Shown here: one piece after another, positions 8,604-52,719 of the stretch
Layout: the number at the start of each line of letters is the position of its first letter
Position numbering within the stretch: the stretch's first letter is position 1
Assembly: GCA_903959855.1 (NCBI GenBank)
Contig: CAJBYR010000280.1
Span: 1 to 58,184, forward strand
Direction: 5' to 3'
DNA from: an uncultured beta proteobacterium
GTDB lineage: Bacteria > Pseudomonadota > Gammaproteobacteria > Burkholderiales > Rhodocyclaceae
Length of the DNA stretch: 58,184 bases
Translations under genes and position numbers: made by a program
Notes under the pieces: model-generated
The model's database searches: none
What the model saw: the letters and a program-made list of their open reading frames with translations, nothing else
What the model was told of the DNA's origin: nothing

Positions 8604-9599
8604 TCAGGGACGCTGTCCCGGTGGATTCGGCGGCGAATCCGGCAATGGATGAAAGGCGCGGCTGACATAGTCTGCAATCGCGCCGATCTCGCCCGGGGAG
8701 AAGACATTTTTCCAGGCCGGCATCGATGTATTTGGCAGGCCGTCGCCGACCACGGCGATGAAGCGCGGGCGTGTCATCTGTGCCATGAATGCCGGGTCAC
8801 GCAGGTTTCGTGGATGGGGCTCGAGAAAGCTGCCGATCCAGTTTTTGCCGGTGCCGTCGGCGGCGTGGCAAAAGGCGCAATTTCCCTGAAACAGCTTTTC
8901 GCCGAGACGCTCCGAACGCGTCAAACCCTTCAGTCTGGGGCGCACATCGTGCATTGCATAGGGACTGGCGCTTGCGATCGCATCGGGCTTTGGCGGTGCC
9001 GTGAAGGAAAAATTGTTGCGCGGGTAGGAAAGCGGCCGGGCGTCCCATGTTGAGCCATCGCGCTCGCCGGGGCCGCGGTCATGACAAGTGATGCAGGTAC
9101 CGAGGAACAGCCGCTTGCCACGGGCCTGTTCCGCCGTGAGGCTTTCCCAGCTCTGGCTCATGGCGATCTCGCTGGTGGCAAACGGAAACGCAATCCGGTA
9201 GCGCTCGTGGTCCGGCCAGCCGTTTTCCGGCGTGTGGTAGCGGGTATTGACCGCCTTGCTGACCACGAACTCGTCATGTACGAAGCGCGCGACCGAGGTG
9301 ATTTCAGCCTCGGACAGAACGCTCGCAAACGACTTCATCGCCGTTCCCGGCCGCCCGACCTTCAGCGTGGCGACAATGCGAGCCTCGGGCAGGCTGGCGG
9401 GGGTCGCGGCAGTGAAATCGGCCGGCGGCGGGGTCAGGAAACTCGCCGCAACGGTTTTGGCGTTGCCGGAATAGCCGTGGCAGAAGTAACAGCGGAAATT
9501 GTAGATCGCGCGTCCGTCGGAGCCTGGCTCTGGAGCCGGCGCCGGACGGGCCGGAAACGGCAGCAAAAAAAGAACGACGACAAGCAGCAATCCTCTCAT
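8604..9599 (-). CDS. Triheme cytochrome c
   Basis: Signal peptide; CYFCH, CITCH, CAFCH. Confidence 0.88.
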   Translation of the reverse strand: MRGLLLVVVLFLLPFPARPAPAPEPGSDGRAIYNFRCYFCHGYSGNAKTVAASFLTPPPADFTAATPASLPEARIVATLKVGRPGTAMKSFASVLSEAEITSVARFVHDEFVVSKAVNTRYHTPENGWPDHERYRIAFPFATSEIAMSQSWESLTAEQARGKRLFLGTCITCHDRGPGERDGSTWDARPLSYPRNNFSFTAPPKPDAIASASPYAMHDVRPRLKGLTRSERLGEKLFQGNCAFCHAADGTGKNWIGSFLEPHPRNLRDPAFMAQMTRPRFIAVVGDGLPNTSMPAWKNVFSPGEIGAIADYVSRAFHPLPDSPPNPPGQRP

Positions 9600-9614
9600 C
9601 GGGTCAAACAGTGC

Positions 9615-10679
9615 TTACTTTGATTTGCCCTGCTTTTGCCCCGGCATGACGAAGCGCTGGAAGACAAATTCGGAGACATTGGCAATTTCCTGATTGCTTA
9701 GAACCTTGTTCCAGGCGGGCATTTCGGTGCCGAGGCGGCCCGTTGCAGTCGCCGCGTAGATTGCCGGCCGGTTGAATGCCGACGTAAACGCGGGGTCGAT
9801 GAAGATCCGTGGTTTCGGGTTGATGAAATAGGCGCGGGGCCCCTGGCCATCTCCCTTGGCGCCATGGCAGGTGGCACAGTTGGCCATGTAAAAGCGGCCG
9901 CCTGCAACCGCATCGCCCTTCAGGCTGTTGGGCATCGGCTGTTTCATGTCGGCCCCCGACGACTTGGCCGCGGGCAATGCCGCCCCGGTCTTTCGTCCGG
10001 CATGGGCGCTGGTGCCGGAAATTTCGGTCTGCGGCACCATCAAGGCGCTGCGCACATAGTCCACCACCGCTTCTATATCGGGCGCTTGCAGGCGGCTGCC
10101 GAACCCTGCCATCGCCGAACCGGGCCTGCCCATGGTGACGGAAGCAATCATGCGCTCGCGGGTCAATTCGGCTCGCGCCTGGGGGGAGGCAAGATCGCGC
10201 GCCGGCTTCGAGCCGCCGATTGCAAGTTCGCTGCCTTGTCCTTGCGCCCCGTGGCAGGTAATGCAGTTCTGCGCATAGAGGGTCTTGCCGCGTTGCAGCC
10301 GTGGATCAAGGGCCACGATCATGAACGTGCGGCGGATGTAGTCCGTGACCAATACGATTTCAGCAGGGCTGAGCTGGGTCTTCCAGCCGACCATGGCCGT
10401 GCCGGGTTTGCCATGGGTGATGATCGTGATCATCGCCTCGCGGGTCAATTCGCCGGCGGTGGTGAAATCCCGTGGCGGCGGATTCAGGCTGTTGCGCGCG
10501 CGGCTGCGTCCGTCGCCCCGGTCGCCATGGCAGACCGAGCAATAGTTGTGATACAGAGCATCCGGTCTTGATTCGGTACCTTTGGCGACACGTTCGCCGG
10601 CGAGAGCGGGAAAAGACCCGAAAAATCCCAGCATCGCGAGAACAAGAGCGATGCGGAAAGGGGAAATTAGGAATGGCAT
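9615..10679 (-). CDS. Triheme cytochrome c
   Basis: MPFLISPFRIALVLAMLGFFGSFPALA signal peptide; CSVCH, CITCH, CATCH. Confidence 0.88.
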   Translation of the reverse strand: MPFLISPFRIALVLAMLGFFGSFPALAGERVAKGTESRPDALYHNYCSVCHGDRGDGRSRARNSLNPPPRDFTTAGELTREAMITIITHGKPGTAMVGWKTQLSPAEIVLVTDYIRRTFMIVALDPRLQRGKTLYAQNCITCHGAQGQGSELAIGGSKPARDLASPQARAELTRERMIASVTMGRPGSAMAGFGSRLQAPDIEAVVDYVRSALMVPQTEISGTSAHAGRKTGAALPAAKSSGADMKQPMPNSLKGDAVAGGRFYMANCATCHGAKGDGQGPRAYFINPKPRIFIDPAFTSAFNRPAIYAATATGRLGTEMPAWNKVLSNQEIANVSEFVFQRFVMPGQKQGKSK

Positions 10680-10792
10680 GTTGATTGTGGCCTTGAAAAT
10701 GTTCCGGGGATGAGTCGCGCAGAGCCGACATGGTAGAGCCAATTCGCGCTTTGGAGCAATTCTGGAAGCAGGTATCGCACCGGACTTCGCTA

Positions 10793-10886: not shown

Positions 10887-11270
10887 ATGAATTCAGTTTT
10901 TATCCGTATTTTATTGGTTCTCTCGCCATTGGTCCTGTGGATCTTTTCGCTCGGGCCGTCCGACGGAATTGCCACTGCGGCCGACAAGAACATCGGGCGG
11001 GACATATTCCTGCAAAACTGTGCGGCCTGCCATCTCCATGGCGTCGCCCAGGCGCCGCGGGTCGGCAATTTTGCGGAGTGGGAGCCACGGCTCGCCGCCG
11101 GGCGCAGCAATCTGCTGAATTCGGTATTGCGCGGCAAGGGCGGGATGCCGCCCAAGGGCGGCAATGCGTCGATTTCTGACGCACAGGCGGCCGCCGCGTT
11201 AGACTATGTCGTCGCACAGGTTCTGGCGCTTGACCGCGACGCACAAGTGGCCAGCAGATCCGGGATGTAG
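10887..11270 (+). CDS. Monoheme cytochrome c (c5-like)
   Basis: Signal peptide; CAACH; GMPPKGGN motif and heme-domain length. Confidence 0.87.
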   Translation: MNSVFIRILLVLSPLVLWIFSLGPSDGIATAADKNIGRDIFLQNCAACHLHGVAQAPRVGNFAEWEPRLAAGRSNLLNSVLRGKGGMPPKGGNASISDAQAAAALDYVVAQVLALDRDAQVASRSGM

Positions 11271-11338: not shown

Positions 11339-12172
11339 ATGTCTGACTATCAATTTCAAAAAATTCCCGGACGGGACCAGGCGCGGCGTGAGCGGGGTTT
11401 CCTTGCACGGTTTCCAGTGCTGATGCGAGGCGGCAATTGTCGTCGGGCAACGGTTTGGCTGGTTGCGATCCTGCTCGCCACCAGTGTCAATGCGGACGTC
11501 AGGGAGACGCCGCACAATCTCATCCGTTCCCGCGACAAGAGTGTCAGCGAGAAGCAGGTGTGCGTTTTCTGCCATACCCCCATGGATGCGATGGGCGACG
11601 CCGCGGCGGGTAGCGGCAGCGGCGTAAAGCCAAGCTGGCAGCAGTCGCTGGGCAAGGAGTTTGCATTCACGATTTACGATGACATCGGGCGGCTCGGGAT
11701 CGGCAAGCCGTCCGTCGGGTCCCAGTCGCTGGCCTGTCTATCCTGTCACGATTCAAACCAGGCCTACAGCGTGGGCCGCACCTCCGCCGATCATCCGTTC
11801 GGGGTTCCCTACCGCGGCGCCAAAGGGGTCGGGCTGCAGAATTTCGCTGCGATGACCCGTGAATCAGAATCGATTGCGCCATTCCGGGTGGCGCAGCATT
11901 TGTTGTCGCTCGAGGATTTTCGCGATGTCAGTCAGGGTACGGTCGAAGGGCGGACTATCTTCTGGGTATCGAGCAGGGGTGTTACGGTGCGCCGCACGCG
12001 CAGCGACCTGCCGCTGTATGCCCGCAGCACCGGCGATCCGCTGCTTGAAGGCGATCTGTCCGTCCCGCACATCGAATGCAGCAGTTGCCATGATCCGCAT
12101 ACCAAGAACGATGCTTTCCTGCGGGTTTCGGCAACTGGTAGTCAGTTATGCCTGACCTGCCATGACAAATAG
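11339..12172 (+). CDS. Tetraheme cytochrome c, doubled-CXXCH type
   Basis: CVFCH, CLSCH, CSSCH, CLTCH; same order as the ORF at 13647. The true start may be ATG 11423 (MRGGNCRRATVWLVAILLATSVNA signal peptide). Confidence 0.85.
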   Translation: MSDYQFQKIPGRDQARRERGFLARFPVLMRGGNCRRATVWLVAILLATSVNADVRETPHNLIRSRDKSVSEKQVCVFCHTPMDAMGDAAAGSGSGVKPSWQQSLGKEFAFTIYDDIGRLGIGKPSVGSQSLACLSCHDSNQAYSVGRTSADHPFGVPYRGAKGVGLQNFAAMTRESESIAPFRVAQHLLSLEDFRDVSQGTVEGRTIFWVSSRGVTVRRTRSDLPLYARSTGDPLLEGDLSVPHIECSSCHDPHTKNDAFLRVSATGSQLCLTCHDK

Positions 12173-12217: not shown

Positions 12218-13348
12218 ATGAGTTCGGAAATCCGCTGGGTTGAAAATGTGGCGATTCTGGTGGTCCTGTTCGGCTTGTCGGCCTGCGTTACGGTCGAAAA
12301 GCGCGACCTGGACAAGGTCGGGCGAGCCGCCCGGGTTCTGGTTTACCCGTCGCCGCCCGATGAACCGCGGTACGCCTTCGAGCGGGCGATCCGCTCGAGT
12401 GCCGATGTGATCCCGGAAGAAGACGAATCCGCATTGCGTCGCGCATTGACCGGCGGCAGCGGCGCTACCGCAGAGCGACTGAACAAGCCCTATGCAATCG
12501 CGGTTCACAAAGGCAAGATTTTCGTTTCCGATTCGGTCGGCCGGGCTGTGCGTGTGTTCGATGTTCCCGGCCAACGGTATTACAAGGTCGGCGACGAAGA
12601 CGGTCAGGGCAAAATCGCCAAGCCGCTGGGCATCGATCTCGACGGCCAGGGCAATCTTTATGTCGCAGACGCTACCCAGAAAGTCATCCTGGTGTTTGAT
12701 AACGAGGGCAAGTTTTTGCGCAAGTTCGGCGGGCCCAAGCAGTTTGATCGCTTGTCCAGCGTGACAGTCGACGATGCAGGAGAAAAAGTTTACGTGGTCG
12801 ACATCGGTGGCGTTTCCTCGGATCAGCACCGGGTGCGCGTGTTCAATGCCCGCAGCGGTGTGCATCTTTACGACATCGGCAAACGCGGTGAAGGCCCCGG
12901 CGAATTCAACCTGCCGCGCGACGTGGCGCTGGGCAAGGACGGCCGCATCTACGTGGTCGATGGCGGCAATTTCCGGGTGCAGATTTTCGACAAGGACGGC
13001 AAGTATCTGAAGAGCTTCGGTTCGGTGGGCAAGCAACTGGGCAACTTCGCCCGGCCCAAGGAGATTGCCACCGACCGCGAGGGCAACGTGTTTGTTGCCG
13101 ACACCGCATTCGGCAACTTCCAGATATTTACCGCAGAAGGCGAATTGCTCATGTTCGTCGGTGACCGCTCCGAGCAGGATCAGCCTGCCGGCTACATGCT
13201 GCCGTCCGGTATTGCCGTGGATGAAGATGGCAGGGTGTATTTTGTCGATCAGTGGTTTGCGCGGATCGACGTATTCCGGCCCTACAAGCTCAAGGAGTCC
13301 GAGGGCTACCTCGGCGCCCGGGCCAAGCCGAAGGTGGCGAAGAAATAG
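12218..13348 (+). CDS. NHL-repeat beta-propeller lipoprotein
   Basis: Lipobox GLSAC; repeated NLYVADATQK / GRIYVVDGGNFRVQIFD / GNVFVADTAFGNFQIF blades. Confidence 0.87.
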   Translation: MSSEIRWVENVAILVVLFGLSACVTVEKRDLDKVGRAARVLVYPSPPDEPRYAFERAIRSSADVIPEEDESALRRALTGGSGATAERLNKPYAIAVHKGKIFVSDSVGRAVRVFDVPGQRYYKVGDEDGQGKIAKPLGIDLDGQGNLYVADATQKVILVFDNEGKFLRKFGGPKQFDRLSSVTVDDAGEKVYVVDIGGVSSDQHRVRVFNARSGVHLYDIGKRGEGPGEFNLPRDVALGKDGRIYVVDGGNFRVQIFDKDGKYLKSFGSVGKQLGNFARPKEIATDREGNVFVADTAFGNFQIFTAEGELLMFVGDRSEQDQPAGYMLPSGIAVDEDGRVYFVDQWFARIDVFRPYKLKESEGYLGARAKPKVAKK

Positions 13349-13646: not shown

Positions 13647-14516
13647 ATGAGCAGAATCAGAAGCGGGCTGATCGGCTGGGCATCGGGGGCAGTGCTTGCT
13701 CTTACCCTTGGCATGCCGGGCATTGCGGCCGCAGGGATTGCCAATACCAAACACAATCTGACCTCGGCCGGTCCGGGTGTAAATAAGACGACTGGTACCG
13801 ACCAGATCTGCGTGTTTTGCCACACGCCCCACGGTTCGAATCTGGCAGTGTCGGCTCCACTTTGGAATAAGGCATTGCCGGCCAGTTCGTATAAAACCTA
13901 CAATTCCACAGGGGACGGTGGTGGTTCGGGCGTTGCCACGACGGCAACTAACTCCATCGATGGCCAGATCTTGGCCGTAGGCTCCGTGTCGCTGGCCTGT
14001 CTGTCCTGCCATGATGGTTCGCAGGCCATGGACAATATGGTTAATGCCCCCGGGTCCGGTAGCACGGCGATTGGCACTGGGGGTTGGTCGGGAGCGAACC
14101 AGGCGACAGGTGCTATAAAGGCTGGATTGTTTTCAAACTTGGGTGTCGATCTTAATAACGATCATCCGATCGGAATCCAGTACTGCGGTGGTGGTGTAAC
14201 GGGTGGCGCGACCACGTCGGCCGCGGCTGATGCCACTGTCAGTTGCAACGATGCCGACTTTGTGACGACCGTGAAAAACGCGAAGATAAATGGTCAGCAA
14301 GTGTTCTGGGTGGAGCGTGATGGAACCGCGACCAAGCGCGGCAAGGAAGACATCATTCTCTACACCCGCGATTTCACCAGCGCGTTAGCAACCCCTTCCG
14401 TTGAGTGCGGAAGCTGTCATGACCCGCACGTTGAAACAAAGGGCACGGACAACGTTAATTTCATGCGCGTAACGACATCCGGTTCGCAAATCTGCCTGGC
14501 CTGTCACGTAAAGTAA
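13647..14516 (+). CDS. Tetraheme cytochrome c (OmcE-like candidate)
   Basis: Signal peptide; NTKHNLT...QICVFCHTPHGSN...APLWNK; CLSCHDGSQ; CGSCHDPH; GSQICLACHVK*. Confidence 0.88.
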   Translation: MSRIRSGLIGWASGAVLALTLGMPGIAAAGIANTKHNLTSAGPGVNKTTGTDQICVFCHTPHGSNLAVSAPLWNKALPASSYKTYNSTGDGGGSGVATTATNSIDGQILAVGSVSLACLSCHDGSQAMDNMVNAPGSGSTAIGTGGWSGANQATGAIKAGLFSNLGVDLNNDHPIGIQYCGGGVTGGATTSAAADATVSCNDADFVTTVKNAKINGQQVFWVERDGTATKRGKEDIILYTRDFTSALATPSVECGSCHDPHVETKGTDNVNFMRVTTSGSQICLACHVK

Positions 14517-14599
14517 GCGGTCGAAGCCTGACGCAAGTCGCGAACAGGTGCGGAGGGCCGGGTAGCCGGGTGCTGCTCTGAATCCTGCGGCCTAACTCC

Positions 14600-14631
14600 A
14601 GCCCCAAAGGAAACTTTGGGGCTGTTTTTTT
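14600..14631 (+). terminator. Rho-independent terminator after the tetraheme gene
   Basis: AGCCCCAAAG-gaaa-CTTTGGGGCT followed by a T-run. Confidence 0.88.
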
Positions 14632-14882: not shown

Positions 14883-15938
14883 ATGAACAAGACATGGAAG
14901 TCATGTGCCGCTTTGGCGGCAGTGCTGTGTTGCTGGCTGAGCGCTGCGGCCGTTCGGGCGCAGGCTGTTTCCCCTCCCGCTGCTCCCCCCGCGGCGGCAG
15001 CCATGCCGGCGGCGGCTCCGGCGGCGGTGCCTCCGGTAGCGCCCCCCCAGCCGCTGTATGCTACCGTCAATGGCAAGCCGATCATGCAGGGCGAGTTCCA
15101 TGCCGCCTACGCCAATCATTTGCGGCAGAAGTTCTACCACGGTCAGGTGCCGCAGGAGCGTCTGCTTGAAGCACGCAAGGAAGTCAGCGACAAACTGATA
15201 GACCGGATACTCTTTCTGGAGGAAATCCAGCGCCGCGGCATCACTGCCGATCCGGCGGAGCTGGATCGGCGTGTGCAGGACTACGACCAGCGCTACGCCA
15301 ACAATCCAAACTGGCAGCGCAGTCGCGAGCTGATGTTGCCCGGCCTGCGCGAGAAACTTGCCGAGCAACTCGCCATCGGGCAACTTGAACAATCCGTCAG
15401 CAAGGTTCCGCTTCCCACAGGGGAAGAAGTCAGGGCTTTTTACGCCGCCCGGCCGGAGCTATTTACCGAGCCCGAGAAGTTCCGCTTGCATTCGATTCTG
15501 CTTGCTGTCGATCCCTCGTCGGCGCGTCCGGTGTGGGATGCCGCAACGCGGGAAGGGGAAGGTATCGTTCGCCGGATTCGTGCCGGTGCTGATTTTTCGG
15601 AGCAGGCGCGACTGTTTTCCAAAGATGCGAGCGCGGAAAGCGGTGGCGACCTGGGCTACCTGCACCGGGGCATGCTGCCCGATTCATTGCAGGCCCGGCT
15701 GGAAGAGTTCAAGTTGGGCGAAGTCGGTGGCCCCATCGAAATGCTGCAGGGCGTGGGCGTCTTCCGGCTTGACGAGCGGGTGCCGCCGAAATTGAATGAC
15801 TTCGATCGGGTGGCGGCGCGCGCGCACGATCTGCTGCATCGCGACCGGCAGACCCAGGCATGGAGCGATCTCGTCGCGAAACTTCGCCGCGATGCCGTGA
15901 TCGTGATTCACGAGCCCGCACCGGTAGCTGCCCAGTAA
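14883..15938 (+). CDS. Peptidyl-prolyl cis-trans isomerase, parvulin/SurA-like
   Basis: Signal peptide; Pro/Ala-rich linker; ATVNGKPIMQGEF; parvulin core EPEKFRLHSILLAV...FSEQARLFSKDASAESGGDLGYLHRGMLPDSL. Confidence 0.86.
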   Translation: MNKTWKSCAALAAVLCCWLSAAAVRAQAVSPPAAPPAAAAMPAAAPAAVPPVAPPQPLYATVNGKPIMQGEFHAAYANHLRQKFYHGQVPQERLLEARKEVSDKLIDRILFLEEIQRRGITADPAELDRRVQDYDQRYANNPNWQRSRELMLPGLREKLAEQLAIGQLEQSVSKVPLPTGEEVRAFYAARPELFTEPEKFRLHSILLAVDPSSARPVWDAATREGEGIVRRIRAGADFSEQARLFSKDASAESGGDLGYLHRGMLPDSLQARLEEFKLGEVGGPIEMLQGVGVFRLDERVPPKLNDFDRVAARAHDLLHRDRQTQAWSDLVAKLRRDAVIVIHEPAPVAAQ

Positions 15939-16009: not shown

Positions 16010-18373
16010 GTGAGGCGCGGCGTTCGCTTGTTCCGGCACCGGACTCTCTCCCGCCTGCTGCTCGGCGCATTCGGCGGAGCAGCGGTCTGCGGCGGGTTTG
16101 CATGGGCGGCAGACGGCCCGGTCAATGTGTCAGCACCGGGCACGGGCAACCGCGATGGCACTGACGAAAACAAGCAAGCCGGTCTTGTATTGCGTTTGTC
16201 GCCGCGGCTTGGCAAGTCGCGGCTTCGCTTACCGACCGATCGGTCACCGGTGCTCAGGCCCGACATCGCCGATGTACCGGTGCTTTCGCTTTCGTACCGG
16301 CTCGACAAGCGTGCATCGGGCGCTGTCGTGGCCGGGAGGGCTCCGGCTGTTGCCGCCGCATCGGCAGCGGATCTGCCTGCGCAAGAGAGCACCGGTGTGA
16401 TGATGGCGGCTACTGCGTATAGCCCCGGCTCGCCGGTCAGCCGGCTGGTCGAGGGTGAAGAACTGCCCGAGCCCGAGGCGCCGGTTCCGTTTGACCCGCA
16501 GCCCACGACGGTGCCGCGCGCGACCGCAAACCGCGAGGCATCCCGTGGCGGGGAACAAGGGCGGGATGCGGATGGCCTTCCGGACCTGAGCGCCGAGACT
16601 TGGGTCATGGCGCCGATACGCTGGAGCGGCATGACCAACACAAGTCTCAATGCCTTCGACGCCGGCGGGGGCTCGCAAAGTTTAAGTGATACCAATGCAA
16701 TCAGCCTGCAAGCCAACAGTTTCATCATGGCGCCTTACATCGCCCAATGGACCGGGGCGGTCGGCTACAGCGGCGCGAACAGCCGATCGACTTCGGCGAG
16801 CGGCCCGACCTTGAAGAGCGCAAGTTCGGCCTTGAATTACGCCGCAGGCGTGAGTGTTTTTCCGCAAAGCCGGTTTCCCCTCAGCATGAATATCGGCCGC
16901 TCTACCAGCGAATCGAAGTCCGGTGGCGGTGCGTCTTCGACGATCAGTTCGACGTTTACCGCCAACCAGGAATACCGGACGGACGAGGGGCGCGACCGCT
17001 ACACCGCAAACTTCGCCCGGAGCACCTACGGCAGTGGCAGCAACACCAGCCTCACTTCATCCCTGCAAGGGAGTTTTTCGACCTCCCGCGACTATGAATA
17101 CGAGCATCTGCTGGAAGGGCGGCACGCGATCACGGCCAACTTCGGCATGTCTTCCGCCACTGCTGACCTCATCGGTCAGAAGTCACAAACGTTCAATGCA
17201 AACCTCAGTCACGGCTGGACAGTGTATGAAGATCTGAGTTTCGCCAACCGGCTGAATCTGATCCGCAACCAGGTTGTCGTGGCCCAGGGCAATGCGTTAA
17301 CGCAGGCGGATTCGACCTTGCTCCTCGGGGCAAGCTCTTTTTCGTGGCGTCCGTTCGAAGATGAACCCCTGCGCTTATCCGGTGGCGGAAATTTCAGCCA
17401 GACCAAGACCATGGCGAATGGCACTGCAGTGGATATGCAGAATCTGGGCGCTTCGTTATCGGCCACCTACCAGTTCAACCAGCAGCTCTCCTTTGCCGGA
17501 AATGCCTCGCTGGTGTCAACCTCATCAGCCAGCATACATACCCTAGTGACCACCCAGGGTGCTACGGCGAGTTATAGCGGGATGCCCCTCAAGTTCGGAG
17601 ATTTCAACTATCAGTGGGGTCTTGGCGGCGGAGTCAATAACTCGACCTCGAGTGCGGGGGGAGGGGGTGTTTCGGCGAGCGTATCGGCCAACCACGGACT
17701 CAGTCGTCCTTACCTGATCGATGAAGGGAATGTGATAAATCTGAATGCGGGGCAGAGTGTTTCTGTAAGTCGGGCGTCGTCGAGCCTCAATACCGGTATC
17801 TCCAATACCTTGGGGGCTTCCTGGAGTACCCGATATGGTGATCAACTGACCGGCAATCTCAGCGCCAATCTGGCGGACAATACGAACCTGGGTGCGGATG
17901 GCCAAACCCGGTTTCAGACCATGAGCCTGCTTGGTAACGGAATTTATCAGGTTAGCTCGCGGGCGGCAGTGTCCCTGAATACCAACCTGAACTGGAGCCA
18001 GAGCGGTGGCGGAGGGGGGGCTTCTTCGACGCAGGCGCTGAACGGCGTTGTCGTCGATACGCGTGCATCCCAGCTTTCCGGTTCAGTCGGGATCTCCTAT
18101 TCGCACCGCAGCCCTTTTTCGATTCCATTTCTTGAATACACTGCTAGCGCGATTTGGACAGGCAGCCAGTCGGGCCGGCGAATCGTGGGGGGGGATGCCC
18201 AGTCAAGTCAGATCCAGTCAAGCGGTTCGTTTCAGCAGTTCGCCAATTACCGGCTCGGGCGGTTGGTATTCAGCCTGAGCAATTCGATCATTGGTCAGGG
18301 TGGCAGGAAAAGTGCTTCATTGTTCGGGTCGGTCACCCGGGAGTTTGACGGATTTTTTGACGGACGCTGGTAA
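16010..18373 (+). CDS. Putative outer-membrane beta-barrel protein (787 aa), candidate electron-conduit porin
   Basis: Signal-like N-terminus ending FAWA-ADG; long S/T/N/G-rich alternating amphipathic strands; C-terminal VTREFDGFFDGRW* with terminal aromatic; embedded in a multiheme cytochrome operon. Confidence 0.7.
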   Translation: MRRGVRLFRHRTLSRLLLGAFGGAAVCGGFAWAADGPVNVSAPGTGNRDGTDENKQAGLVLRLSPRLGKSRLRLPTDRSPVLRPDIADVPVLSLSYRLDKRASGAVVAGRAPAVAAASAADLPAQESTGVMMAATAYSPGSPVSRLVEGEELPEPEAPVPFDPQPTTVPRATANREASRGGEQGRDADGLPDLSAETWVMAPIRWSGMTNTSLNAFDAGGGSQSLSDTNAISLQANSFIMAPYIAQWTGAVGYSGANSRSTSASGPTLKSASSALNYAAGVSVFPQSRFPLSMNIGRSTSESKSGGGASSTISSTFTANQEYRTDEGRDRYTANFARSTYGSGSNTSLTSSLQGSFSTSRDYEYEHLLEGRHAITANFGMSSATADLIGQKSQTFNANLSHGWTVYEDLSFANRLNLIRNQVVVAQGNALTQADSTLLLGASSFSWRPFEDEPLRLSGGGNFSQTKTMANGTAVDMQNLGASLSATYQFNQQLSFAGNASLVSTSSASIHTLVTTQGATASYSGMPLKFGDFNYQWGLGGGVNNSTSSAGGGGVSASVSANHGLSRPYLIDEGNVINLNAGQSVSVSRASSSLNTGISNTLGASWSTRYGDQLTGNLSANLADNTNLGADGQTRFQTMSLLGNGIYQVSSRAAVSLNTNLNWSQSGGGGGASSTQALNGVVVDTRASQLSGSVGISYSHRSPFSIPFLEYTASAIWTGSQSGRRIVGGDAQSSQIQSSGSFQQFANYRLGRLVFSLSNSIIGQGGRKSASLFGSVTREFDGFFDGRW

Positions 18374-18431
18374 CGTCAACCCGGCCGCTACGGGTTGTGG
18401 AAAATTCAGGTTTGCTGAGGGAAGGATCTAT

Positions 18432-18842
18432 ATGTTTGGAAAATCTGCTGTGCAACGGCTGTTGCTTGTCGCGATGGCCCTGGCAACAGTGTTTCTGGTC
18501 GACATCGACGAGGCGCGGGCCGAGTATGGAGACGTCGTGATAAATAATTATTCCGACGCCGCGGGGATGCGCCCCGCGATATTTCCGCACTGGTTCCATC
18601 GTGTGCGCTTCCGGTGCAAGGTCTGCCATGCCGACCTTGGATTCAAGTTCAAGGCCGGAGGCAACGAAATCAACATGGTGAAGATCATCGATGGCCAGTT
18701 CTGCGGGGCTTGCCATAACGGCGAGCTTGCCTGGTCGGTGGAAAACTGCAACCTTTGCCATTCCGGCAAGCCGGGAACGCCGACGCAGGTTCACGAAAGC
18801 ACGGTCCAGAAACTTGCCCCTGCGGCGCTTCAAAAGAAATAG
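18432..18842 (+). CDS. c7-type triheme cytochrome
   Basis: EYGDVVIN...FPHWFHRVRFRCKVCH...CGACH...CNLCHSGK. Confidence 0.87.
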   Translation: MFGKSAVQRLLLVAMALATVFLVDIDEARAEYGDVVINNYSDAAGMRPAIFPHWFHRVRFRCKVCHADLGFKFKAGGNEINMVKIIDGQFCGACHNGELAWSVENCNLCHSGKPGTPTQVHESTVQKLAPAALQKK

Positions 18843-18853
18843 GGGGTGCGATC

Positions 18854-19822
18854 ATGAAACTGGAACGAATCATTCTTGCTTGCGTATCCCTGGCCGGATT
18901 TGCAAACACGACGCTGGCTGCGGATGCCGGCAAGGACCTTTATACCAAGACCTGTGCGGTATGTCATGCTGCGGGCATCGCCGGCGCGCCGCGCTACGGC
19001 AATGCTGCCGAGTGGCAACCGCGCATCGCCACCGGTGTGGCGCGCTTGTACAGCAATGCCATTCAGGGTACGTCCAAGGGTATGCCACCCAAGGGGGGAA
19101 ATGCCGAAGCGTCGGATGGCGACATCAAAGCGGCGGTTGACTATATGCTGGCGTCGGTCAAGGGCGGGGCGGCGAAGCCGGCGCCGGCCGTGGCGGCGGC
19201 CCCTGCAAAGCCCGCTGCGGCGGCAGCAACGGCTGCGCCGGCGGCAGCGCCGACGGCAGCGGTCGATCCATCCTCGAATACCTCGGGGGTGCCGGCAGCC
19301 GATATCAACTCCTTCAATCGCCTGTTGCGGCCGATCGGAAAACGCAATCCACCGCCGGTGGAAGATGGCATTCACGATCCGGCCAATGACGGCACGTTAG
19401 CGCTGATGGCACCCCTGGCCGCCTATGGTCCGTTGCCGAAAAGCCTGGCAGGAAACCGGGTCAACTGGGTCAAGGCGATCGAAGAGAACAAGATCAATCC
19501 GCGCTGGGACCGCAACGATCAGGCGGCGACTCCGGTGGTCATCGATCTCAACATCGTCCGCGAAGTCAAGGGTTCAATGCCGGATGTGGTTTATCCGCAC
19601 AAGCAGCACACCGAGTGGCTCGACTGCTCGAATTGCCACCCGGCCATCTTCGTTCCGCAGAAAGGCGCCAATGCGATCAGCATGGCTGCGATCCTGCTCG
19701 GTGAAAAGTGCGGCGTCTGTCACGGCAAAGTGGCTTTCCCGGTTTCGGAATGCCGGCTGTGCCATTCAAAGAAAAAGGACTTTCGACCTGCTCAGGCCCA
19801 AGCGGCTGCTGCGCCAAAGTGA
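18854..19822 (+). CDS. Tetraheme cytochrome: c5-like monoheme domain, Ala/Pro linker, c7-type triheme domain
   Basis: CAVCH...GMPPKGGN; AKPAPAVAAAPAKPAAAAATAAPAAAPTAAV linker; FPHKQHTEWLDCSNCH, CGVCH, CRLCH. Confidence 0.87.
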   Translation: MKLERIILACVSLAGFANTTLAADAGKDLYTKTCAVCHAAGIAGAPRYGNAAEWQPRIATGVARLYSNAIQGTSKGMPPKGGNAEASDGDIKAAVDYMLASVKGGAAKPAPAVAAAPAKPAAAAATAAPAAAPTAAVDPSSNTSGVPAADINSFNRLLRPIGKRNPPPVEDGIHDPANDGTLALMAPLAAYGPLPKSLAGNRVNWVKAIEENKINPRWDRNDQAATPVVIDLNIVREVKGSMPDVVYPHKQHTEWLDCSNCHPAIFVPQKGANAISMAAILLGEKCGVCHGKVAFPVSECRLCHSKKKDFRPAQAQAAAAPK

Positions 19823-19835
19823 TTAAGGAATAGCC

Positions 19836-20726
19836 ATGAAGACGATTCACGTAGCTCTGATTTGCCTGCTGCTGAGTGGCGGTGCTTTTGCTCAGGCCAC
19901 CGCAGCAACCCCTGACAGTGCGGCGTCGCGCCTGGCCGGCAACAAGATCGACAAAGGCCAGCTTGCTTCGAATCTTGATTCCGTCGGCAAGCTGCTGGAG
20001 ACTTCCTCGGCAGCCCGCCAGATCGAGTCAAGCAAGGCGCCGGAAGCGTTGCAGCGGCGGGATCGTGCCCGCGAGCTTTACAGTAACGCCAAGGCCGCGC
20101 TCGAGCAGGGCAATCTGGAAAAGGCCTCCGCCCTGCTGGCCGAAACCCGATCGGTCTTTTTCGACGCGGTCCGGTTTGCGGCACCGGAAGAAGTCACTGC
20201 AAAAAAGCTCGAAAATGACTATCTGCTGCGCCTTGAAAGCGTGCAGGCATTGCTGGGCGCCTACAAGCGGGTTTCAGGTGAAAAATCGGCCGGGGGCGTT
20301 ACCGATACTGTCGCTCAGATCGAGAAATCGATGGCCGCAGGCGCACTTCTGGCGAAAGATCGCAAGTTCAAGGAGGCGCGTGCCGAGGTCGACCGCGGCT
20401 ATCTGGTGGCCAAGGCGGGGCTGACCACGCTGCGCAGCGGCGATACCTTGACGCGGTCCTTGAACTTCGCCAACAAGGAAGAAGAGTTTCATTATGAAAT
20501 TGACCGGAACAATACCCATCAGATGCTGATCAAAGTGCTTGTTGATGAGCAAAAGTCTTCCGGTGAGATGGTCAGGAGCTTTCTATCCAAGGCAGCTGAG
20601 TTGCGGGTCAAGGCCGATGCTGCGGCCACCCGCAAGGATTACGCCGAAGCGGTAAAGCTGCTTGAGGATTCGACCTCCGAACTGGTCCGTGCGATTCGAA
20701 ATGCAGGAATATACATACCGGGATAA
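19836..20726 (+). CDS. Heme-free, predicted helical periplasmic protein of unknown function
   Basis: Signal peptide MKTIHVALICLLLSGGAFAQA; Ala/Glu/Lys/Leu-rich helical sequence; no CXXCH; co-directional within the cytochrome operon. Confidence 0.75.
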   Translation: MKTIHVALICLLLSGGAFAQATAATPDSAASRLAGNKIDKGQLASNLDSVGKLLETSSAARQIESSKAPEALQRRDRARELYSNAKAALEQGNLEKASALLAETRSVFFDAVRFAAPEEVTAKKLENDYLLRLESVQALLGAYKRVSGEKSAGGVTDTVAQIEKSMAAGALLAKDRKFKEARAEVDRGYLVAKAGLTTLRSGDTLTRSLNFANKEEEFHYEIDRNNTHQMLIKVLVDEQKSSGEMVRSFLSKAAELRVKADAAATRKDYAEAVKLLEDSTSELVRAIRNAGIYIPG

Positions 20727-20732
20727 CCCCTA

Positions 20733-21293
20733 GTGCCGACGTGGATCATTGTTGCAGCTTTGCTTTTGGTGAACGCCCCGGTACTGGCCGGGCCATGGGA
20801 CAAACTGCGCGAGGATGGCGTCCATGATCCGCGCAGCCCGGCGATCAACCGGCTGCAGGAGCCGGGAGATGCCCTGTCGAAACTTACCCCTGACAGCGCC
20901 GGAAACATGGTGCGCTGGGTTCAGTCGCTTGAAAAAGGCGAAATAAACCCGCGCGCCAATCTGCGGCCGGACACCAAGATCCGGCTCTATGATTCCGATG
21001 TGATGCTCAATCTGAATGGCGGGATGCCGATGGTGAAATTCCCGCACCGTCAGCACACGCTGTGGCTTGATTGCGCAAATTGCCACGACCATTTGTTCAA
21101 GGCCGAGGCAGGAGCCAACAAGCTCTCGATGCTGGCGATTCTGAACGGCGAGCAATGCGGGGTCTGCCATGGCGCGGTGTCCTTTCCCCTGACCGAGTGT
21201 TTCCGCTGCCACAACACTGCCAAGCCGGGCGGCAAGCCACCCCGGCCGAGCCTGCCGATTGCAATCCCGGCCGGTGCAGTCCCACCGAAGTGA
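20733..21293 (+). CDS. c7-type triheme cytochrome
   Basis: GTG start; FPHRQHTLWLDCANCH, CGVCH, CFRCH. Confidence 0.85.
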   Translation: MPTWIIVAALLLVNAPVLAGPWDKLREDGVHDPRSPAINRLQEPGDALSKLTPDSAGNMVRWVQSLEKGEINPRANLRPDTKIRLYDSDVMLNLNGGMPMVKFPHRQHTLWLDCANCHDHLFKAEAGANKLSMLAILNGEQCGVCHGAVSFPLTECFRCHNTAKPGGKPPRPSLPIAIPAGAVPPK

Positions 21294-21679
21294 GCCAGGT
21301 GCGGCGAATCCTTCAGGTTTGTCTGCTGCTGATTCCGGCCCTGGTTGCCGGGATTCCGCCGGCAGCGGCCGAGTATGCTGACGTGGTCCTCAATCGTCGG
21401 GCGGAAAAGGAGGGCATGCGTCCGGTCATATTCCCCCACTGGTTTCATCGCATCCGCTTTCGCTGCAAGGTATGCCACCAGGAGTTGGGTTTCAAAATGC
21501 GTGTCGGCAGCAACGATGTCAGGATGTCGGATATCGTCGAAGGAAAATTTTGCGGTGCGTGCCACAACGGCGATGTTGCCTGGGCACCGGACCAATGTGA
21601 TCTGTGTCATTCGGCCAAGCGCGGCTTGCCCACGGGAATATATGGCGGTCATGAGACTCTCGGCCCCGGACGCTGGTAG
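21290..21679 (+). CDS. c7-type triheme cytochrome
   Basis: GTGA overlap with the upstream stop; FPHWFHRIRFRCKVCH, CGACH, CDLCH; close relative of the ORF at 18432. Confidence 0.85.
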   Translation: MSQVRRILQVCLLLIPALVAGIPPAAAEYADVVLNRRAEKEGMRPVIFPHWFHRIRFRCKVCHQELGFKMRVGSNDVRMSDIVEGKFCGACHNGDVAWAPDQCDLCHSAKRGLPTGIYGGHETLGPGRW

Positions 21680-22598
21680 GCGCCGTGCATTCCTCTGCCG
21701 CTCGGCCGCCACCGCGCTGGCGCTTGGCATGGCCGGCTGCAGTGCGGCGGCGCCGGCGAAGCCGCGACGGGAACTGTGGCTTGATCCGGTGTTCGGTCTT
21801 TCCGGCGCGCGCCTGACGGACAAAACGGATCCCACCGGATTTCCTTTGCCCGGTGGTAAAGAGAGCTTCGTGTACTTCCAGTTTCCGGTCGCTGTTGTCG
21901 CCAGCCTTGAATCGATCTTTATTGCCGATGCAGGAACCGGCCGCTTGTTCCGCTACGTTCAGAGCAGCGGCCTGATGACGGCGATCCCCGGCGTCAGGGT
22001 TCGTCCCGGAATGCGATTGCAGGCCGCACTCGACGGCACGGTGTTTGCGCTGGATGCCATGGGTGGGGAAATCTCACGGTATTCAATGCAGGGCATTCCA
22101 CTGCCCGCGATGCAGCCGCGCATGCCGGGCAGCCGCTACCTGGATTTTGCGATTGATCTGCAAAGCGGAACGGTTCTTGCGGTTGACGCCGTATATCGGG
22201 TGGTGGACCGGATCGAGCCCATGGGTCGTATCGCCATTGTTCATATGAACCTTGGCACAACAGGCCCGCTGGCCCTCGATGGTTCGCTGCTGGTGGTTGC
22301 CGACGCGCAATGCAAATGTGTCAGCGAATGGCGCGGCGGACGCATGCTGCGAAGGCTTGCGGTCGGCTTGATCCGGTTGCCCAAGGCTCTGGCCGCGGAA
22401 AAGGGGGAAATTTATGTCCTGGATGGATTTGATCGCAGCATTTCGCGTGTCTCTGAGGGCGGGCTGGAAACCATCATCGCGGCCGACCTCAATCTGGTTT
22501 CTCCGGAGCAGATGACCGTCGCCGGTGGCATGATGTATGTGGCCGACGGTGCTGGTCGCAAAGTGATGGCTTTTAAAATCCGACGGCGTCAGGACTGA
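21642..22598 (+). CDS. Beta-propeller-like lipoprotein
   Basis: Lipobox LGMAGC; repeated IFIADAGTGRLFRY / LLVVADAQCKCVSEW / MMYVADGAGRKVMAFK blades. Confidence 0.75.
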   Translation: MAVMRLSAPDAGRRRAFLCRSAATALALGMAGCSAAAPAKPRRELWLDPVFGLSGARLTDKTDPTGFPLPGGKESFVYFQFPVAVVASLESIFIADAGTGRLFRYVQSSGLMTAIPGVRVRPGMRLQAALDGTVFALDAMGGEISRYSMQGIPLPAMQPRMPGSRYLDFAIDLQSGTVLAVDAVYRVVDRIEPMGRIAIVHMNLGTTGPLALDGSLLVVADAQCKCVSEWRGGRMLRRLAVGLIRLPKALAAEKGEIYVLDGFDRSISRVSEGGLETIIAADLNLVSPEQMTVAGGMMYVADGAGRKVMAFKIRRRQD

Positions 22599-23686
22599 TG
22601 ACACTGCGTCATTTACTGCTTGTTGTTATGTTTCTTGGATTGTTGTCCGGCTGTGCCGGCCAGGCCAGGAAGAACCTGTTCGTCATTGACGTGGATCAGA
22701 CCCAAAAAGGGCATCTGATGTTTCCGCCGGATATCGATGGCGATGTTCCGCGTTACGTCTACCTCGGCCATCTTTACGGAGACCGGAATTTCATCGATCC
22801 CGAGCCCAGAGGCCCCGGTTTGCTGGAAACCCTGGGGCGGATTCTGGATTTCATCAAGGGTGATGCGCCGCCACGCGAACTCTACCGGCCGCAAACGGGT
22901 GTAATCGACGAGGCGGGCCGGATTATGGTCGTCGATCGGGGAAGCCCTGGGGTGTTTGTGTTCGACGAAACCAAGGCGACCCTGGAGTTGTGGCAGCAGG
23001 CCGTGGGCTCGCAGATGTTCGTGAGTCCGGTCGGTATTGCCCTGGGGCCGGACGGCTTGCTGCTGGTGGCGGATAGCGAACTGGCGTTCGTTGCACAGCT
23101 TGACCGGCAAGGGAATCCCGCAAGCACCATCGGCAAAGGCCACTTGACCCGTCCGACCGGGATTGCCTACGAGGCATCGACCCGGCGCATCTTTGTTGCC
23201 GATACCGCCGATCATCAGATCAAACTGTTCGACTTGCAAGGCAAACTGCTCGACGTCTGGGGCGAGCGCGGCGACGGACCGGGCGAGTTCAACTTTCCGA
23301 CCTTCATCACTGTGCGCGACGGGAAACTTTATGTCTCAGATACGATCAATGCCCGGGTTCAGGTGCTGTCTACCGTAGACGGCAAGCATCTTGCAACGGT
23401 TGGCAAACTCGGGATGTACGTTGGTAACATGGTTCGACCCAAGGGTGTGGCTGTTGATGGCGAGGGAAATATTTATGTGGTTGAGTCTTTTTATGATCAT
23501 TTGCTGGTCTATAACTCCCGTGGCGAGTTCCTGATGCCGATCGGGGGCGTCGGCAGCGAGCCAGGCCAGTTTCACCTGCCATCCGGTGTCTGGATCGACG
23601 CGCGCAATCGCGTGTTCGTCGCGGATGGCCTGAACAGTCGTGTCTCTGTATTTCAGTTCCTGGGTGGAGGATCGGAGAGTGAATAG
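22598..23686 (+). CDS. NHL-repeat beta-propeller lipoprotein
   Basis: Lipobox LLSGC; RIFVADTADHQIKLFD, KLYVSDTINARVQVL, NIYVVESFYDHLLVY, RVFVADGLNSRVSVFQ. Confidence 0.87.
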   Translation: MTLRHLLLVVMFLGLLSGCAGQARKNLFVIDVDQTQKGHLMFPPDIDGDVPRYVYLGHLYGDRNFIDPEPRGPGLLETLGRILDFIKGDAPPRELYRPQTGVIDEAGRIMVVDRGSPGVFVFDETKATLELWQQAVGSQMFVSPVGIALGPDGLLLVADSELAFVAQLDRQGNPASTIGKGHLTRPTGIAYEASTRRIFVADTADHQIKLFDLQGKLLDVWGERGDGPGEFNFPTFITVRDGKLYVSDTINARVQVLSTVDGKHLATVGKLGMYVGNMVRPKGVAVDGEGNIYVVESFYDHLLVYNSRGEFLMPIGGVGSEPGQFHLPSGVWIDARNRVFVADGLNSRVSVFQFLGGGSESE

Positions 23687-26354
23687 GTTCTGGTTGCGGG
23701 TGGTTCTGCTGCTGGCCATTGGCGCCTTGAGCATTCCGTTCGCCCGTGCCGAACGCCAGTCAAAAGTCAGCGAAACCAAGCACAACCTGTCTACGAGCAG
23801 CGCGGACGGAAACACCAAATCCGGGACCGAAAGCCAGATTTGCGTCTTCTGCCATACGCCGCACGGCGCCAATACGACGAATGTTTCGCCACTGTGGAAC
23901 CGTGCCACCTCCGGCGCAACCTACAACGCGTACTCCTCCGAATCGCTGGACGCCAGATTCGTCCTGGCCAGCAACTGGCTGGGCCAACCGCTGGGAAGTT
24001 CGAAACTGTGCCTCTCGTGCCACGATGGCACGATTGCGCTGGGCAATGTCGTCAATGCCCCCGGTGCAGGTGCCGGCAGCGCCATCTCTGTTGCGGGCAG
24101 CACAACAACCACAATGCCGGCCGGCACCAACACCGATGGCGCCTCCCCGGCTCAATCGGGCTATACGCGTCTGATCGGCAGCGATCTGCGAAACGATCAT
24201 CCGATCTCGATCACCTATGACAGTACGCTGGCCGCACGGGACGGCGAACTGCGTGTGCCGAACGCCCAGCAGCAGATTACGGGCCTGGCGCAAAACAGCA
24301 ATCATCCCCTGGTCGGGCCGCGCGCTCCGGGTCAAGGCAGCGGCATCGGCAACTCGGCCGCCAGCAGCGGATTGTATGGTACGAAATCGACGCGCCCGGT
24401 GCTGCCCCTGGAAAACACCACCGGCGCTGGCAGCGGCACCGGGCAAGTGCAATGCACCACCTGTCACGATCCGCACATCAAGGAAACCGACCTCACAGCC
24501 GAGAAGAACATCAAGTTTTTGCGGCGGCCGCGTTTCCAGCTGGATGTAGCGACCGGCAACTACCAGGACGGCAAAGACATCATCTGCCTTGCCTGTCACG
24601 ACAAAGGCGGCGAAAGCTGGGCCCGCTCGGCGCATGCCAATAGTCAAGTTGCCCAGCAAACTTACAAAGATGCAGCCGCCAACCTTCGCGAATTTCCATT
24701 GAACATTCCCGTCTGGAAGGCCTCCTGCCTGAATTGCCACGATACGCACACCGTCAGCGGCGCGCGGCGCCTGACACGCGGTGGTGTGCTCAGCGGCACC
24801 AGCACCCCGGCGCTGGAAGAAACATGCTACCAGTGCCACCGCAGTACCGGTTCGATCCTCAACTCGGTGACCACGGTGCCGGATATATGGGCTGATTTTC
24901 AGCTGGCCCGCAAAATGCCGATCACTGCCGCCAACGAGCAAACCAGGCACGACATCGGCGGAAATTTTAACGACACCTATTTGGGAACGGGAACGTCGGG
25001 ATCAAATTGCACCGGCGCTACCAACAAGTGCGGTGCCGATTTTGTCGAGGCTGTTGAGTTTCTCGGCCCGCCTCCGGGTCACCTTTCCGGTAAGGCGACC
25101 AACTCCAATCGCCATGCCGAATGCACGGATTGCCACAACCCGCACCGGGTGGTGAAGAATCGTCTTTTTTATGGATCGGCGAGCGGGTCGTACAATATCA
25201 CTGCGCCGCAATCCGAGGGGACACACAATCATACGGACACCGCGATGCTGCATACCAATGTTGCTTCGGGAGTTTTGCGGGGAACCTGGGGGGTCGAACC
25301 GAGTTATTCGAGCGCATCTTTTCATAGCCTAGCTAGCGATTTCAAGGTTCGTCGCGGCGACCCGGGTATCGATTTTGTAGCGAATGATTCTACCCCCGAC
25401 GACAAGGGCTTTGTGACGCGCGAATATCAGGTGTGTCTCAAGTGCCATTCTTCTTATGCCTATGGCAGCACGCCGCCGGACTTGGGCGTTTCCACGCCAA
25501 GCGGAACCAACGGCCTGACAAAATACACGGACCAGGCCAAGGAATTTCAGGCACCGGACGCTCACAGAGGCGAACCCCTCAGCGTCGGAAATGCCGGTGG
25601 ATCGGTTGGATACAACGCGAACAACCACCGCTCGTGGCACCCGGTGATGCGTTCAACCGGCCGCGACGCCGGGAGTCGCGATTTGAATGCCGACAATGCG
25701 TTCCGGCTACCGTTCCGGAATGTCGGCACCCAAACCATGTACTGCAGCGATTGCCATGGGAGCAACACGGGCGGCACTACAGCGATCCCGGCGGGAACAA
25801 ACCAGTCCGCCGGCGAGGGCTCCGCCTGGGGGCCGCACGGCTCAGGCAATGATTTCATTTTAAAAGGAGTATGGACCGGTAATACCGGGCACAACACTGC
25901 CAATGCGCTTTGTCTGAAATGCCACAACCCCATAAGTTCAACGGGTTTTAATGGGCCTGTAGGGAATTTGCATGACGAACATCAAAAACGGATCGGGGGA
26001 ACCCTGCAATGTACCTGGTGCCATATCGCCGTACCGCATGGCTGGAAGAACAAGGCCTTGCTCGTCAATTTGAACGATGTGGGCGGCGAGGTGCCGGGTT
26101 ACTTGGCGACTGACAGTTTTGAGGTCGCCATTCAAAATAGCGCTGACAACTATACGGCGCCGCCATATTATCTGGAGGCAAAAAACAAGATTCGTTCTTT
26201 CGCGCAAAGTGGTAGTTGGGTAGAAGGCAACTGTGGATCATCGAATGTTGCAGGGAAAACGATCATCGCGAATAGTCAGGGCGGCACTAGTAATCGCGCA
26301 GGGTCAGGGAAAAACTGGATGACAGCGGGTGTCTGCAATTCGGGCATGCCGTAG
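23679..26354 (+). CDS. Undecaheme (11 CXXCH) cytochrome c
   Basis: GTG start overlapping the upstream stop, then signal peptide VNRFWLRVVLLLAIGALSIPFARA; CVFCH, CLSCH, CTTCH, CLACH, CLNCH, CYQCH, CTDCH, CLKCH, CSDCH, CLKCH, CTWCH. Confidence 0.88.
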   Translation: MNRFWLRVVLLLAIGALSIPFARAERQSKVSETKHNLSTSSADGNTKSGTESQICVFCHTPHGANTTNVSPLWNRATSGATYNAYSSESLDARFVLASNWLGQPLGSSKLCLSCHDGTIALGNVVNAPGAGAGSAISVAGSTTTTMPAGTNTDGASPAQSGYTRLIGSDLRNDHPISITYDSTLAARDGELRVPNAQQQITGLAQNSNHPLVGPRAPGQGSGIGNSAASSGLYGTKSTRPVLPLENTTGAGSGTGQVQCTTCHDPHIKETDLTAEKNIKFLRRPRFQLDVATGNYQDGKDIICLACHDKGGESWARSAHANSQVAQQTYKDAAANLREFPLNIPVWKASCLNCHDTHTVSGARRLTRGGVLSGTSTPALEETCYQCHRSTGSILNSVTTVPDIWADFQLARKMPITAANEQTRHDIGGNFNDTYLGTGTSGSNCTGATNKCGADFVEAVEFLGPPPGHLSGKATNSNRHAECTDCHNPHRVVKNRLFYGSASGSYNITAPQSEGTHNHTDTAMLHTNVASGVLRGTWGVEPSYSSASFHSLASDFKVRRGDPGIDFVANDSTPDDKGFVTREYQVCLKCHSSYAYGSTPPDLGVSTPSGTNGLTKYTDQAKEFQAPDAHRGEPLSVGNAGGSVGYNANNHRSWHPVMRSTGRDAGSRDLNADNAFRLPFRNVGTQTMYCSDCHGSNTGGTTAIPAGTNQSAGEGSAWGPHGSGNDFILKGVWTGNTGHNTANALCLKCHNPISSTGFNGPVGNLHDEHQKRIGGTLQCTWCHIAVPHGWKNKALLVNLNDVGGEVPGYLATDSFEVAIQNSADNYTAPPYYLEAKNKIRSFAQSGSWVEGNCGSSNVAGKTIIANSQGGTSNRAGSGKNWMTAGVCNSGMP

Positions 26355-28484: not shown

Positions 28485-28485
28485 C

Positions 28486-31907: not shown

Positions 31908-32099
31908 AACACCGCATGCTAACTCACGGCATTTCTATCTGCCAGTTGGCAGTGCCGGGCGCGGCGAATGAGCCGATTTTCGAAGTCAGATTTTCCGCCG
32001 CCCTGCGGGAGCGGGCGGTATGTATAGCATCGGACTGGTCGAGAGTCGGCGGTGGCCCTACGCCGATGGGGTGCTTGTGTATGCCATACGAGGGCGCCC

Positions 32100-37152: not shown

Positions 37153-37749
37153 CTACTTGGTGTGGCAGGCAAGGCAAACCTGGCTGCCACTATTGGAGCC
37201 TTGTCGCAGAAAAGTTGCCGCCGTGCCAAGGTGAGGGTTGTGGCAGGTTGCACACTCAACCTTGCTGTTATAAAGCGGCAAAGTTGTCGATGGCTTGAAG
37301 TCTTCCGCCAATGACAAACCTGCGTAGAGCATGCCTATCGGATGGTCGTCGTTCAGGTCGGTGCCGATTTTCGCCCAACCTGTGATTTTGCCTCCGACCT
37401 GGCCATCGCCACCATCGCCGAGCCGGCCGCCTGCGGCGCCAAATCCTCCGACACCGGGGGAGTTGATCACGGTGTCAGTGGTTTGGGTTCCGTCATGACA
37501 CGTCAGGCAGGCTGTCGATACGCTGGCAGATGCCGGAAAGACGCCGCCGTTGTAGGTCTTGTTCCATAGCGGCGCATTCTGGGCAACACTCGACCCGTGA
37601 GGCGTGTGACAGAAGACGCAAACTTGCGTGGTCGCCTGCACGCCGGCCTTCTGTGTGCTGCTGAGGTCGTGCTTGCTACCGACTACCCCCTGTGCGTGGG
37701 ACAAAGGTAGGTACAAAACCAGGCACAAGACCGAAATGAGAGCCTTCAT
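37153..37749 (-). CDS. Tetraheme cytochrome c (OmcE-like candidate)
   Basis: MKALISVLCLVLYLPLSHA signal peptide; GSKHDLSS...VCVFCHTPHGSS...APLWNK; CLTCHDGTQ; CATCHNPH; GSQVCLACHTK*. A longer start at 37827 is possible. Confidence 0.87.
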   Translation of the reverse strand: MKALISVLCLVLYLPLSHAQGVVGSKHDLSSTQKAGVQATTQVCVFCHTPHGSSVAQNAPLWNKTYNGGVFPASASVSTACLTCHDGTQTTDTVINSPGVGGFGAAGGRLGDGGDGQVGGKITGWAKIGTDLNDDHPIGMLYAGLSLAEDFKPSTTLPLYNSKVECATCHNPHLGTAATFLRQGSNSGSQVCLACHTK

Positions 37750-37915
37750 GAGAGATTGCAGCACCAGTCTGCTGCGGCCTGCAAGGGGAATCGGTTTGAA
37801 GGCGCTTAATAGTTGTTTCATTTTCAAATCTCTCCCCGAAGTGAGATGTGCTTATGCTTTTTTATATGGCTACAGTGCCTGACGCTAGCTGACGGGATGC
37901 GTTTCGGGGGTTAGA

Positions 37916-39734: not shown

Positions 39735-39889
39735 CATGACGATTATTTTGACGGCCGCGCTGATCAAGCGGCCGCAATTGCCGGCAACTGATTAAACTCG
39801 AACTGAAATCTCATTTTTCATTGAGTGGGGAGTTGTCGGTGCGCCTCGGGGTGCGGAATTCTCCCGCGTACCGGCTATGCTGAAACAAT

Positions 39890-45436: not shown

Positions 45437-45445
45437 GGAGCTTCG

Positions 45446-49972: not shown

Positions 49973-49982
49973 GAGAAACTGA

Positions 49983-52395: not shown

Positions 52396-52706
52396 AGATT
52401 AAATTGGGCACTGGAATCCGGATTGTCGGACTCGTTGCTGCTCTGCTGCCTGATGTTGCACTTGCACTGGACTTGATGCGCGGGCAGCGGGTCTACAACA
52501 CACATTGTGCGGTTTGCCATGGAATGAACGGTATCCCCGTAATTCAGCAAGCGCCTAGCTTTGCTTCGAAGGAGCGTCTGATGCAACCGGATATGGTGCT
52601 ACTCCAGTCAGTAAAGATGGGGAAGTCGATCATGCCTCCATTCATGGGAATATTGAACAACGATGAGATTCTGGATGCTCTCAACTATGCACGGACGCTT
52701 CGCTGA
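52392..52706 (+). CDS. Monoheme cytochrome c
   Basis: Signal peptide; CAVCHGMNGIPV; ATGA overlap with the upstream ORF. Confidence 0.86.
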   Translation: MKIKLGTGIRIVGLVAALLPDVALALDLMRGQRVYNTHCAVCHGMNGIPVIQQAPSFASKERLMQPDMVLLQSVKMGKSIMPPFMGILNNDEILDALNYARTLR

Positions 52707-52719
52707 AGGAGTTTCATCG

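Follow-up and report, generated by a model that had tools for sequence, protein, structure and literature searches.

The closest solved relative of the protein analyzed here is OmcE from Geobacter sulfurreducens (PDB 7TFS), a cytochrome filament in which one heme per subunit is ligated from the adjacent subunit (PMC9473688, PMC12307469). The hemes of OmcE and their ligands superimpose on those of OmcS (PMC9473688), in which the polymer bond is formed between His16 of one monomer and heme V of the next (PMC13319180). What cytochrome filaments do physiologically, and whether they carry current, is disputed (PMC11077965).

A second described system is the electron uptake cluster uetABCDEFGHIJ (uet, undecaheme electron transfer), which has been reported in Tenderiales and Gallionella (PMC10734462, PMC12575090); the available portions of these two accounts draw no link to OmcE. 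Here, both systems were compared with a 58,184-nucleotide stretch of betaproteobacterial DNA (CAJBYR010000280.1; hereafter "the window"). While the uet operon and the OmcE family are already known, the variation represented by a paralogue without one ligand histidine is new.

The uet operon and OmcE-family cytochromes of the window

As in the cluster of Tenderiales and Gallionella, to the extent that the available text covers it, a complete uet set is colocalised in the window, comprising the tetraheme UetA, the peptidyl-prolyl isomerase UetB, the porin-like UetC, the trihemes UetD, UetE and UetG, the propeller-type (NHL) proteins UetH and UetI and the undecaheme UetJ (Table 1). Compared with the cluster as described in the same text, the window and its Rhodocyclales relatives have an additional upstream tetraheme paralogue that lacks a His, and the window has four c7-type genes, one of which is fused to a monoheme domain. 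Most of the 80 named loci compared share this gene order; they derive from Beta- and Gammaproteobacteria, Magnetococcales and a Kiloniellaceae MAG, as well as from MAGs labelled Nitrospirae and Nitrospinota, labels that may be wrong. Within the window's own genus, only some members have uet. UetC, for which Pfam and NCBIfam give no match, has Ser/Gly/Asn-rich amphipathic strands and an aromatic C-terminus.

Table 1. Features of the uet region and of the stand-alone OmcE homologue, with positions in the window
Feature	Position	Strand	Description
Two c-type cytochromes	8604..10742	-	3 CxxCH each; divergently transcribed; syntenic with uet in most loci
Monoheme cytochrome c	10887..11270	+	Upstream of OmcE paralogue "B"
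OmcE paralogue "B" (11339 protein)	11423..12172 (listed ORF from 11339)	+	Four CxxCH, 7 of 8 ligand His; candidate filament cap
NHL beta-propeller	12218..13348	+	Predicted lipoprotein, LSAC lipobox
uetA	13647..14516	+	Tetraheme cytochrome of the OmcE family; candidate for the repeating subunit of a nanowire; ligand His 36 (NTKH), 59, 62 (CVFCHTPH), 122, 173 (NDHP), 258, 261 (CHDPH), 287
Intrinsic terminator	14599..14631	+	Directly follows uetA; 11-bp stem without mismatch, loop of 4 nt, T7 tail
uetB	14883..15938 (listed ORF from 14853; ATG 14883)	+	SurA/PPIC-type peptidyl-prolyl isomerase
uetC	16010..18373	+	787 aa; putative beta-barrel porin; role as in the available part of PMC10734462
uetD	18291..18842	+	c7-type triheme cytochrome
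uetE	18755..19822	+	Monoheme + c7 triheme cytochrome (4 hemes)
uetF-like	19836..20726	+	296 aa, no family, signal peptide
uetG-like	20733..21293	+	c7 triheme cytochrome
uetG-like, second	21071..21679	+	c7 triheme cytochrome; listed ORF overlaps the previous uetG-like
uetH-like	21345..22598	+	MAGC resembling a lipobox; without Pfam match; actual start probably farther downstream
uetI	22598..23686	+	NHL beta-propeller, predicted lipoprotein, LSGC lipobox
uetJ	23640..26354	+	Undecaheme cytochrome; N-terminal OmcE module with all 8 ligand His
Stand-alone OmcE homologue (37153 protein)	37153..37827	-	224 aa; retains all 8 ligand His

The ORF at 13647, which the earlier note had read as a tetraheme cytochrome resembling OmcE, is real and encodes 289 amino acids with a signal peptide and four CxxCH motifs; its ATG is preceded by a Shine-Dalgarno-like AGGAG. 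The product is secreted and is the OmcE homologue that forms the UetA component of the uet operon in this betaproteobacterial host. The resemblance was upheld against the solved filament sequence: among PDB sequences, 7TFS was the best match (E=5.5e-28), spanning the mature chain, and by sequence UetA is firmly assigned to the OmcE family. The two proteins have in common four CxxCH motifs, the same four distal His positions and secretion. UetA differs from OmcE in its longer variable loops (289 vs 232 amino acids), in its betaproteobacterial host and in an operon that holds a putative porin, a peptidyl-prolyl isomerase, c7 trihemes and an undecaheme partner; OmcE is a solved filament and UetA a candidate one. 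The second-best PDB match of UetA was 9YUQ (2.5e-22), a "putative multiheme cytochrome c" with 16 chains, which like UetA has exactly eight ligand His in its mature part.

Other members of the family in the window are the 37153 protein, named after the low end of its minus-strand ORF (9YUQ, 9.1e-19; 7TFS, 1.6e-18), the 11-heme UetJ (7TFS, 2.7e-17) and the 11339 protein, whose family profile matched 7TFS at 2.7e-24. At E 0.001, no further family members were found in the genome beyond the window. The fingerprint that the earlier note had described in the products of the ORFs at 13647 and 37153 is indeed common to both, which are 50% identical in alignment, and each has four CxxCH motifs and four distal His at the OmcE positions. 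The same order had also been claimed for the 11339 protein and the N-terminus of the 11-heme ORF. Both do align; the 11339 protein has CVFCHTPM rather than CVFCHTPH and lacks one distal His, and the 11-heme ORF contains an OmcE module without being a tetraheme subunit. As for the suggestion that at least two of these proteins may be nanowire subunits, the reading as a possible nanowire subunit of the OmcE family holds for UetA and is plausible for the 37153 protein, while the 11339 protein, missing one ligand His, is unsuited as a repeating subunit.

No close orthologue of the 37153 protein was found, nor did its gene have operon partners; a neighboring ORF (38139-39767) was considered as a porin and rejected, as it has about eight predicted TM helices. 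Between uet and the 37153 gene lie several genes for radical SAM proteins (one a glycosyltransferase fusion) together with GT87, GT9 and DegT-type genes (26470-37021), which could serve surface glycan synthesis; OmcE filaments have been reported to be glycosylated (PMC13319180). Further along the window, the cytochrome c maturation genes encoding CcmF, a CcmG-like thioredoxin, CcmH and CycH (43463-47731) place assembly and cargo together in the same 58-kb stretch as uet. At 52663-55653, a further c7-type cytochrome gene comes after genes for two Reg_prop beta-propeller proteins, an arrangement that resembles the propeller and c7 genes of uet and is possibly a second electron transfer unit. A histidine kinase and a sigma-54 response regulator (48446-51395), adjoining the Ccm and propeller genes, are candidate regulators of the island.

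Heme ligands and expression of uetA

UetA contains exactly eight His in total, the number needed by four bis-His hemes. These eight are invariant in 69 of 69 aligned UetA-family proteins, a set partly picked by CVFCHTPH; the search for related loci used this motif as one search word, and the conservation of His62 is in part due to selection there. Among uetA relatives found without the motif, CVFCHTPH was kept in every one in which it was readable, and whole-genome pattern counts agree with the conservation of His62.

AlphaFold2 monomer models, predicted without heme, were of low confidence for both UetA (pLDDT 59.8) and the 11339 protein (48.2) and were for this reason dropped for ligand assignment; with the UetA model, Foldseek returned 7TFS as the sole match below 0.001 (5.9e-4), with low TM-scores. 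OmcS (PDB 6EF8/6NEF), although a hexaheme protein without sequence homology to UetA, offers a point of comparison. His16 of OmcS is the His at position +3 of heme motif 1 (CEGCHTMH), and among the visible motifs a +3 His is found at 1, 3 and 5 and is absent at 2, 4 and 6. Similarly, UetA has a +3 His at motifs 1 and 3, its His62 corresponding in position to His16, which is inter-subunit in OmcS, and UetJ has one at motifs 1, 3, 5 and 7 wherever readable and never at 2, 4 or 6. As the simplest rule, we infer that heme n-2 is ligated by the +3 His of motif n, which for motif 1 would place the acceptor heme in a neighboring subunit. By this analogy with OmcS, rather than from a structure of UetA or OmcE, His62 may be the donor to the next subunit. 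The rule predicts heme 3 as the acceptor in OmcE, as opposed to heme 2, which is named by one review (PMC12203936).

In all 24 full-length UetJ proteins examined, 11 CxxCH motifs and an N-terminal OmcE module with four distal His were found. The UetJ chain continues covalently past this module to motif 5, which has a +3 His in every case. Under the n-2 rule, this His would satisfy heme 3 of the OmcE module in cis, so that the motif-1 His would be free to donate. Since 15 distal His are fully invariant in these 24 proteins and 11 are needed, counting does not settle the in-cis claim.

The strong terminator that follows uetA, whose stem starts 82 nt past the gene, has counterparts in other loci. 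Using a simple terminator finder, a terminator within 200 nt of the stop codon was found for 30 of 86 uetA genes (35%) as compared to 25 of 666 copies of eleven other operon genes (0-8% for the individual genes). For strong terminators, the counts were 28 of 86 and 8 of 666, respectively (Fisher p 8e-22, with kinship ignored), although the stems vary in sequence from lineage to lineage. In addition, uetA is preceded by a long gap (median 243 nt), as against spacings near zero between several of the downstream genes. With its terminator and long upstream gap, uetA looks separately expressed, as the gene of a many-copy subunit would be; such a terminator is expected for an abundant subunit.

A paralogue family lacking one ligand histidine

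Translation of the ORF listed from 11339 probably starts at 11423, which yields a normal signal peptide and matches the orthologues. In all 31 records of this family (the 11339 protein and 30 orthologue records, with a few genomes present twice), the +3 His of motif 1 is missing, and the replacing residue is M, I, L, N, A, T, S, Q or R. The 11339 protein keeps its other ligands. In the aligned family, the other seven ligands are present in 21 of 21 sequences, including the N-terminal T(K/P)H-type His, the DHP/EHP His, CHDPH and the CxxCH His, with Q, T, A, M, I, S or R at the eighth position. A conserved substitute ligand was rejected, as any extra His is kept in at most 8 of the 21.

In a tree of 139 domains, the 11339 family forms one group (SH-aLRT 94), which a TPQ protein encoded beside an ectothiorhodospiraceal uet locus joins (97). 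Separate losses of the His were found in a TPQ copy in Ramlibacter alkalitolerans and in locus L109, where uetA copies occur in tandem (8895-10753) and the one directly upstream of uetA has TPS instead of TPH. The motif-1 His has been lost at least three times, each time in a genome with an intact UetA. OmcE relatives with five hemes (CVYCHTPH and an extra CxxCH), which cluster separately in the tree, are encoded near three uet loci (L088, 4098-6209; L109, 6378-7310; L112, 334-1248).

Motif scans of 50 whole uet genomes identified 11 His-less CV(F/Y)CHTP sites, with no genome having more than one and an intact uetA always present; one further paralogue, in L085, has CVYCHAPR and escapes this pattern. 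A His-less paralogue is present in approximately 12 of the 50 genomes and in none of the other 38; therefore, such a cap would not be a general feature of uet genomes. Within the window's genus, an 11339 orthologue was found at full strength in 11 genomes, the window's included, and nearly every genome with a syntenic uetA carries one.

A candidate wire, its rivals and their implications

On these grounds, we consider UetA somewhat more probably than otherwise a filament subunit, and a nanowire function of UetA appears likely. In the proposed model, UetA would polymerise outside the cell into a heme wire, with His62 of each subunit given to a heme of the next. UetJ would join this wire to an outer-membrane conduit formed by the putative barrel UetC and the periplasmic c7 trihemes; as the base of the wire, it would be a donor only, offering its motif-1 His while its own acceptor heme is satisfied in cis by motif 5. 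At the other end, the 11339 protein would be an acceptor only, unable to donate. Accordingly worded, a Rhodocyclales-type uet locus could encode a complete polar nanowire with UetJ as base, UetA as repeat and the 11339 family as terminator, a proposal that we hold only tentatively. We infer the donation in trans, polymerisation, polarity and the roles of base and cap, and the base/cap model is speculative.

UetA could instead be a monomeric or short oligomeric extracellular cytochrome docked on UetJ, performing terminal electron exchange with Fe(II), a mineral or a cathode, and related to OmcE without polymerising. One UetA chain could in principle satisfy all eight ligands, and the available part of PMC10734462 describes UetA only as the extracellular tetraheme of a porin-cytochrome complex, with no polymer reported. 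However, the homology of UetA to a solved filament subunit covers all ligand positions, the +3 His logic derived from OmcS leaves the motif-1 His without a partner heme in cis, and the separate transcription unit with its terminator suggests an excess of UetA over UetJ; we regard the monomeric reading as unlikely.

The 11339 protein is without the ligand that would bridge subunits and is thus poorly suited as a repeating subunit; for this protein, the cap reading competes with two others. Should the missing His act in cis, a heme would have no sixth ligand, and the protein could be a cytochrome, soluble or on the cell surface, whose one open-coordination (high-spin) heme serves catalysis or binds a ligand. 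The conservation of the family (55% mean column identity), with motifs of its own such as DDIGR and PYRGA, would fit such a function, but the lost ligand matches the trans donor of OmcS, the replacing residues are variable, and Rhodocyclales-type loci always place the gene next to an NHL propeller gene and an intact uetA; an open heme seems rather unlikely. That the 11339 protein enters the polymer as a minor subunit, tuning filament stability rather than ending the filament, would be in line with all the other ligands being common to it and UetA; by the OmcS rule, however, each insertion of a subunit without the donor would break the coordination chain one way, and this role seems quite improbable.

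The anchoring of cytochrome nanowires to the cell has been called speculative (PMC12307469), and the tip proteins of cytochrome filaments were left aside in PMC9473688. The OmcE module of UetJ and the His-less paralogue make the questions of base and cap approachable by point mutation. Should UetA form a wire of the OmcE type, nanowires would also occur in bacteria presumed to draw electrons from iron or cathodes, and the gene order would tie the nanowire to a defined porin conduit. If the polar model is true, the end pieces of a cytochrome nanowire would, to our knowledge, be identified for the first time.
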